Below, in pieces: positions 25,842 through 26,945 of a DNA stretch of 64,000 nucleotides; within the stretch, counting starts at the first letter, position 1, and each line of letters starts with the position of its first letter. The notes below the pieces were generated by a model that worked only from the letters and a program-made list of their open reading frames with translations, was not told the origin of the DNA and did no database searches. The DNA is from Candidatus Kinetoplastibacterium crithidii (ex Angomonas deanei ATCC 30255) (lineage in GTDB: Bacteria; Pseudomonadota; Gammaproteobacteria; Burkholderiales; Burkholderiaceae_B): positions 372,001-436,000 of the forward strand of contig NC_019815.1 of NCBI RefSeq assembly GCF_000319225.1. Direction: 5' to 3'. The position numbers and the translations under genes are program-made.

Positions 25842-26945
25842 ATGAATATAGAAGGCCAAAATAACATACTAATTACAATGAAAGATTTTCTAAAAAGAGT
25901 ACTCGAATTACGGAGGTATCTTTGAATATGATAAAAAAATAGAGAGATTAAAAATTATTGAATCAGAATTAGAAAATCCTGATTTATGGAATGATCATAG
26001 TTACGCACAAAAAATTAACAAAGAAAAAAAATATTAGAAGAAACAGTATTTGAGCTAACTAAAATACACGATGATATTGAAGACTCTATAGAAATGTTTC
26101 ATTTGGCACAAATAGATAATGACAATCAATTAATCAAGAGCTTAGAATCTAATGTCATTTTATTCAAAGAAACAATTGAATCATTAGAATTCAAAAGGAT
26201 GTTCGTAAATAAGACTGATTCTCTCAATTGTTTTTTAGATATTCAATCTGGTGCTGGTGGTACAGAAGCACAAGACTGGGCTTTTATGTTAATGAGGCAA
26301 TACATAAGATATTCAGAAAAAAAAGGTTTCAAAATCGAAATTCTAGAAGAGTCATTAGGTGAAATTGTAGGAATAAAATCTGCTACATTAAAAATAATTG
26401 GCAACTATTCATATGGGTACCTAAGAACTGAGACAGGAATACATAGACTTGTTAGGAAAAGCCCTTTTGACTCTTCTAATGGTAGACATACATCTTTTGC
26501 TAGCATATTTGTATACCCAGAAATAGATGACTCATTTGAAATAGAGATAAACCCGTCTGATTTAAGAATAGACACATATAGAGCTAGTGGTGCTGGTGGA
26601 CAACATATTAATAAAACTGATTCTGCAGTAAGAATAACGCATAACCCTACAGGGATAGTAGTGCAATGTCAAAATGATAGATCCCAACATAGAAACAAAG
26701 CCGAAGCCTTACAAATATTAAAATCTAAACTATATGATTTAGAAATAAGAAATCGTTTGCATGAAAAAAAATTATTAGAAGACTCAAAAACTGATGTTGC
26801 CTGGGGACACCAAATAAGATCATATGTATTAGATCAGAGTAGAATTAAAGACAATAGAACAAATATTGAAGTATCTAATACACAAAAGGTACTAGACGGT
26901 GATTTAGATGTTTTCATTAAGTCAAGCCTTAAACAAGGAATATAG
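25842..26945 (+). CDS. prfB: Peptide chain release factor 2, requiring +1 and then -1 recoding
   Basis: RF2 reads UAA and UGA and releases peptides. The frame from ATG 25842 gives 27 codons to TGA 25923-25925, preceded by the classical signal (internal AGGAGG-like CGGAGG, then TAT CTT TGA), so a +1 shift at CTT produces ...RRYL-EYDKK. The new frame runs 36 codons and hits TAG at 26035-26037 directly after eight A residues (26024-26031). The remaining frame continues from ATA 26031 through the tail GGQ motif (SGAGGQHINK) and the RF2 tripeptide SPF to 26945. A -1 slip on A AAA AAA, or one extra A, restores a 367-residue RF2 of normal length. Sequencing error in the A run is the simple alternative. 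A downstream ATG at 25878 is in the same frame and is a second possible start. Confidence 0.88.

Follow-up and report, generated by a model that had tools for sequence, protein, structure and literature searches.

Bacterial prfB is known for a programmed +1 shift by which release factor RF2 autoregulates its own synthesis: an SD-like stretch and a CTT TGA lie a few codons into the gene, and the RF2 reading continues in the +1 frame. The base following the UGA has been described as an almost universal C (PMC12421855). Programmed −1 shifts of the dnaX type use an A-rich heptamer in the −1 phase, A_AAA_AAG, which in E. coli is much more shift-prone than A_AAA_AAA (PMC5009743). In symbionts, 12-50% corrected transcripts have been reported for long poly(A) runs (PMC5009743), and in Blochmannia vafer eight genes, including dnaX, dnaG and pth, carry frameshifts at runs, for which rescue has been proposed (PMC3017870). 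Slippage in Buchnera was found to rise with run length, but did not restore the frame in that study (PMC5574713). Frame breaks at runs are also known as a product of sequencing, as homopolymer errors were reported in 2.13-2.78% of the genes of a 454 assembly, with a bias to A/T and a greater frequency at low G+C (PMC3277595). Among the papers surveyed by title or by the beginning of the abstract, no account of a doubly shifted prfB was found.

In this study, we analysed prfB in a stretch of 64,000 nucleotides (the window, positions 372,001 to 436,000 of contig NC_019815.1) from Candidatus Kinetoplastibacterium crithidii, whose genome, one contig of 821,813 bp, is referred to as G000, together with seven congeners, G001 to G007. 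The gene has the following features, given in window coordinates.

25842-26945, + strand: the whole of prfB, by direct reading of the sequence
25842..25925, + strand: first frame of prfB, with ATG at 25842, 27 codons and an in-frame TGA at 25923-25925
25911..25916, + strand: SD-like CGGAGG of the RF2 +1 signal (GGAGGTATC), kept in 8 aligned genomes
25920..25925, + strand: CTT (25920-25922) and TGA, the slippery codon and the stop of the +1 signal
25924..26037, + strand: RF2 +1 frame, interrupted by TAG at 26035-26037
26024..26031, + strand: A8 run where the reading leaves the RF2 frame, with one base fewer than the congener frame requires; probable homopolymer miscount
26094..26945, + strand: RF2 C-terminal ORF, 283 aa from ATG 26094 (an ATG missing in the congeners), coding 26094-26942, with stop TAG at 26943-26945

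The first part of this arrangement is that of the classical system. The SD-like stretch, the CTT TGA, their spacing and their position are the same as in the programmed +1 shift of other bacterial prfB genes, and the +1 frame reads as RF2 (EYDKKIERLKIIESELENPDLWNDHSYAQKINKEKKY) up to TAG 26035-26037. The C-terminal 283-aa ORF clears the NCBIfam cut-off for TIGR00020 (prfB) with 433 bits against 370. An in-phase CTTTGA or CTTTAA was present upstream in 106 of 109 related prfB loci (29 kept from 40 relatives, plus the best 80 of a longer list), including 102 of 102 outside the genus; this count replaces an earlier screen for the +1 site in which 52 of the 109 loci had no anchor. The preliminary description had placed the end of the first frame at TGA 25923 with the standard RF2 signal in front of it, and both the signal and its coordinates were confirmed by direct reading. 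Judged by its sequence, the +1 shift is thus real in design, and it is already known. When RF2 is scarce, the ribosome would pause at UGA 25923, CGGAGG would pair with 16S rRNA, and tRNA-Leu would slip from CTT into the +1 frame, as described for this mechanism (PMC12421855). The locus departs from the described system in the base after the UGA (window position 25926), which is A rather than C; G006 and G007 also have A at this position, G002 has G and G004 has C. The CTT TGA is kept in G002, G004, G006 and G007. In the remaining three of the seven congeners (G001, G003 and G005), the autoregulatory UGA is gone through loss of one T (GGAGGTATCTTGA), and the SD-like stretch remains.

The later, second frame break is no part of the known prfB system. 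The sequence as given leaves no doubt that the frame is broken. As the preliminary description had noted, TAG 26035 follows directly on eight A (26024-26031), and the heptamer A_AAA_AAA at 26025-26031 is in the exact phase for a −1 step; one step back would cost no residue and resumes RF2 as far as TAG 26943-26945. The same description had named comparison with prfB of related symbionts as a check. In the alignment, the frame is kept at the run in all seven congeners, and the break is confined to the G000 assembly among the eight genomes; the corresponding run is A9 in G006 and AAAAGAAAA in G007. An earlier screen by tblastn, since replaced by the break count given below, did not single out prfB.

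Apart from its phase, the run has little in common with a programmed −1 site. The in-phase heptamer itself is commonplace, with 124 copies in 86 of the 199 ORFs of at least 70 aa in the sampled regions of G000. No stimulating RNA fold was found in four stretches compared with shuffled sequences, three of which cover or follow the A run (best z-score −1.12), and no SD-like stretch was seen by direct reading just upstream of it. The site is not conserved either, as none of the seven congeners shares the break. Compared with a dnaX-type shift, prfB shares an A-rich heptamer in −1 phase, but has A_AAA_AAA in place of the far more slippery A_AAA_AAG (PMC5009743), lacks an SD-like or fold stimulator, and is not conserved. 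A programmed −1 signal at the run was rejected, since none of the four folded stretches exceeds its shuffles.

We then counted broken genes in G000 between 372001 and 465469 (region 1) and between 640001 and 760000 (region 2) against the syntenic stretches of the congeners. With G006 as the reference, 93 and 106 genes were comparable in regions 1 and 2, respectively (199 in all); sampling was partial for G007, with 80 kb in region 2, and for both G005 and G007 in region 1, where they covered the window alone. Six of the 199 genes (about 3%) have breaks in G000 that were kept as clean or almost clean: prfB and five more, namely metG, priA, rlmH, hemD and a HAD phosphatase. The differing bases of these further genes are located at or next to A/T runs of roughly 6 to 9 bases. 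In region 1, prfB was flagged by all three references, and hemD and rlmH by one of three each (with G005 and G007 covering the window alone); in region 2, priA and metG were flagged by six of seven references each, and the HAD phosphatase by two of seven. Within the window, prfB is the sole conserved gene kept as broken. The products of metG, priA and rlmH clear their NCBIfam cut-offs, and hemD and the HAD phosphatase were named from a best match below the cut-off. Whole-genome searches found metG and priA intact in all seven congeners, and rlmH and hemD intact in six of seven with no match in G004, all four being split in G000. The hemD gene has more than one break and shows greater divergence (71% versus 79% for G007); from its sequence, this looks like real decay.

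Automated flags in region 2 numbered 4 in G000, 2 in G002, 1 each in G003, G001, G006 and G004, and 0 in G005 and G007; in region 1, they numbered 5 in G000, 4 in G006, 3 in G007 and 1 in G005. Three of the four G000 flags in region 2 were kept, the fourth being dropped because it rests on one N-terminally extended ORF of G006. Three of five were kept in region 1: one dropped flag is an ORF near the window edge, and the other came solely from comparison with one ORF of G005, which overlaps a tRNA and gives flags for G006 and G007 as well. G006 breaks one gene at a T run, and the same gene is intact in G000 and G007, so real run-length mutations do occur in the genus.

The A. deanei symbiont assembly (Ca. 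K. crithidii, CP003978; 821,813 bp) was built from 454 reads, as was that of the S. culicis symbiont (820,037 bp) (PMC3616161), and the assembly of the PNG-M02 symbiont (816,901 bp) was made with PacBio and Illumina reads (PMC8229890). We take G002 as the S. culicis symbiont of the same 454 project, G006 as the PNG-M02 symbiont, G005 as K. desouzaii TCC079E, G003 as K. galati and G001 as K. oncopeltii TCC290E; G007 is inferred to be the TCC2435 symbiont. The prfB break thus lies at an A/T run in an assembly derived from 454 reads. The resemblance to Roche 454 homopolymer errors extends to the low G+C, to breaks at or beside A/T runs and to the share of compared genes affected (about 3%), whereas prfB itself is known here from one assembly of the symbiont. 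Clean single breaks were expected in G002 as well, but none was seen in its region 2, where the flagged genes are in several fragments, so error is not uniform across the 454 project. The group behind the TCC assemblies also reports 454 sequencing (PMC3846528), and the low counts for its G001, G003 and G005 in region 2 (1, 1 and 0) speak against a simple platform effect, as does the G006 break at a T run. The available parts of two further papers (PMC3833962, PMC5632650) contain nothing on the sequencing of prfB in the A. deanei symbiont.

The same symbiont has been assembled a second time, from TCC036E, with 821,930 bp (PMC8229890); this second assembly may be of the same platform, and a symbiont contig from Nanopore reads is mentioned elsewhere (PMC8022732). 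With the 560-aa metG piece of G000 as the protein query, a 689-aa MetG was found on the 821,930-bp contig. The two G000 pieces match its residues 1-131 and 130-689 without a difference, which makes the identity complete over all 689 residues. As MetG is identical and yet whole in the second assembly, two assemblies of what is locally the same sequence differ in run length, and the enzyme is broken in G000. The truncated HAD phosphatase of the 821,813-bp contig, 206 aa long, is the representative of a protein cluster of its own, and the prfB protein cluster has 4 members.

Some further irregularities were seen around prfB. A 155-aa ORF just upstream (window 25347-25814), presumably YqeY-like, is open in G000; its frame is broken at several places in both G006 and G007, where its sequence indicates real gene decay beside prfB. 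Just outside the window, at 436135-438033 of the G000 contig (G000:C1), a single ORF of 632 aa unites two genes that resemble asd and truA; relative to G006, 133 bases are absent, and in G007 and G005 the two ORFs are separate. This joined ORF is either a real fusion or an assembly fault. The segment of the contig from about 38194 to 465469, which includes the window and lies between two rRNA operons, is inverted relative to all six congeners in which RF1 and RF2 lie on the same contig. A misassembly may be the cause; the inversion was said to need experimental validation (PMC3616161), and no rearrangement is reported for TCC036E (PMC8229890).

Whatever the state of the run, the cell appears to depend on RF2. 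RF1 and RF2 are each encoded by a single gene in G000, and a second RF2 gene supplying the function was therefore rejected. TGA terminates 24 of the 199 ORFs of at least 70 aa (15 of 90 and 9 of 109 in the two sampled regions), which also disposes of the idea that UGA is no longer used as a stop. Downstream of the run, RF2 dN/dS is 0.046 for G000 versus G006 and 0.051 versus G007, with 0.052 between G006 and G007; changes unique to one genome (nonsynonymous:synonymous) are 5:26 in G000, 4:29 in G006 and 3:21 in G007. For the 33 codons between the UGA and the run, dN/dS is 0.44 (G006) and 0.34 (G007) versus 0.26 for G006-G007; each value rests on 5 to 7 changes, a number too small to carry weight. 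Relaxed selection is not seen in these ratios, and purifying selection on RF2 is normal. With RF2 so selected and TGA ending 24 of 199 ORFs, a working RF2 must be made.

Most likely, and in our judgement with high probability, this is an ordinary working prfB with one programmed +1 event and no −1 event, the A8 break being a miscounted homopolymer in the 454-read assembly. The −1 slippage put forward in the preliminary description is not supported as biology, because the break is present in one assembly alone, because other genes of that assembly are broken at or beside A/T runs, and because metG is whole in the second assembly. The homopolymer error that the same description had offered as its main alternative is the better reading, although for prfB itself the miscount is inferred. 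If the A8 run were real, it would be a recent one-base contraction, with RF2 made through slippage of RNA polymerase or a ribosomal −1 step at A_AAA_AAA and the UGA feedback raising output. We consider this unlikely. The site is in exact phase with no residue lost, RF2 is normally selected, and rescue of run frameshifts has been reported in symbionts (PMC5009743, PMC3017870). As in the Buchnera and Blochmannia cases, an otherwise conserved gene in a reduced, A/T-rich genome differs by a single base at an A run. However, the prfB break is common to no congener, the run is only eight bases long, and in-phase heptamers of this kind number 124 across the 199 ORFs; neither a stimulating fold nor an SD-like stretch just upstream accompanies it, and slippage in Buchnera was found to restore no frame (PMC5574713). 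Furthermore, the case is known here from DNA alone, and one sister break of G000, in metG, is absent from the second assembly, the run length there differing between the two. Were the A8 run real, slippage of the polymerase seems likelier to us than a ribosomal −1 shift.

Two other readings also assume a real A8 run. A shorter RF2, lacking about 84 N-terminal residues, might start at the internal ATG 26094, which opens 283 aa. This is very improbable, as the aligned codon is Ile or Leu in all seven congeners, no SD-like sequence was seen before this ATG, and the sequence preceding the run can still be recognised as RF2, even though it comprises 33 codons with a dN/dS of 0.34-0.44 on 5 to 7 changes. 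That RF2 is dead or dying would fit with the decay of other genes of the genus at runs, but is scarcely credible for the sole RF2 gene of a genome that uses TGA stops and shows normal dN/dS.

A miscounted run, the reading that we prefer, has a practical side: run-length errors seem to be present in the 821,813-bp assembly that serves as the reference for this model symbiont, in prfB and metG and perhaps also in priA, rlmH and further genes, and such errors can pass for gene decay or recoding. It is doubtful that RF2 is made solely after two corrections, the programmed +1 shift and then slippage on the run of A, with the UGA feedback buffering an essential gene against run-length mutation. If this were true, an essential gene with feedback and a second, uncontrolled correction would show autoregulation hiding frame damage in a shrinking genome. 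The repeated, recent loss of the UGA inside one symbiont genus, with the SD-like stretch retained, would be well suited to testing why autoregulation of RF2 disappears.
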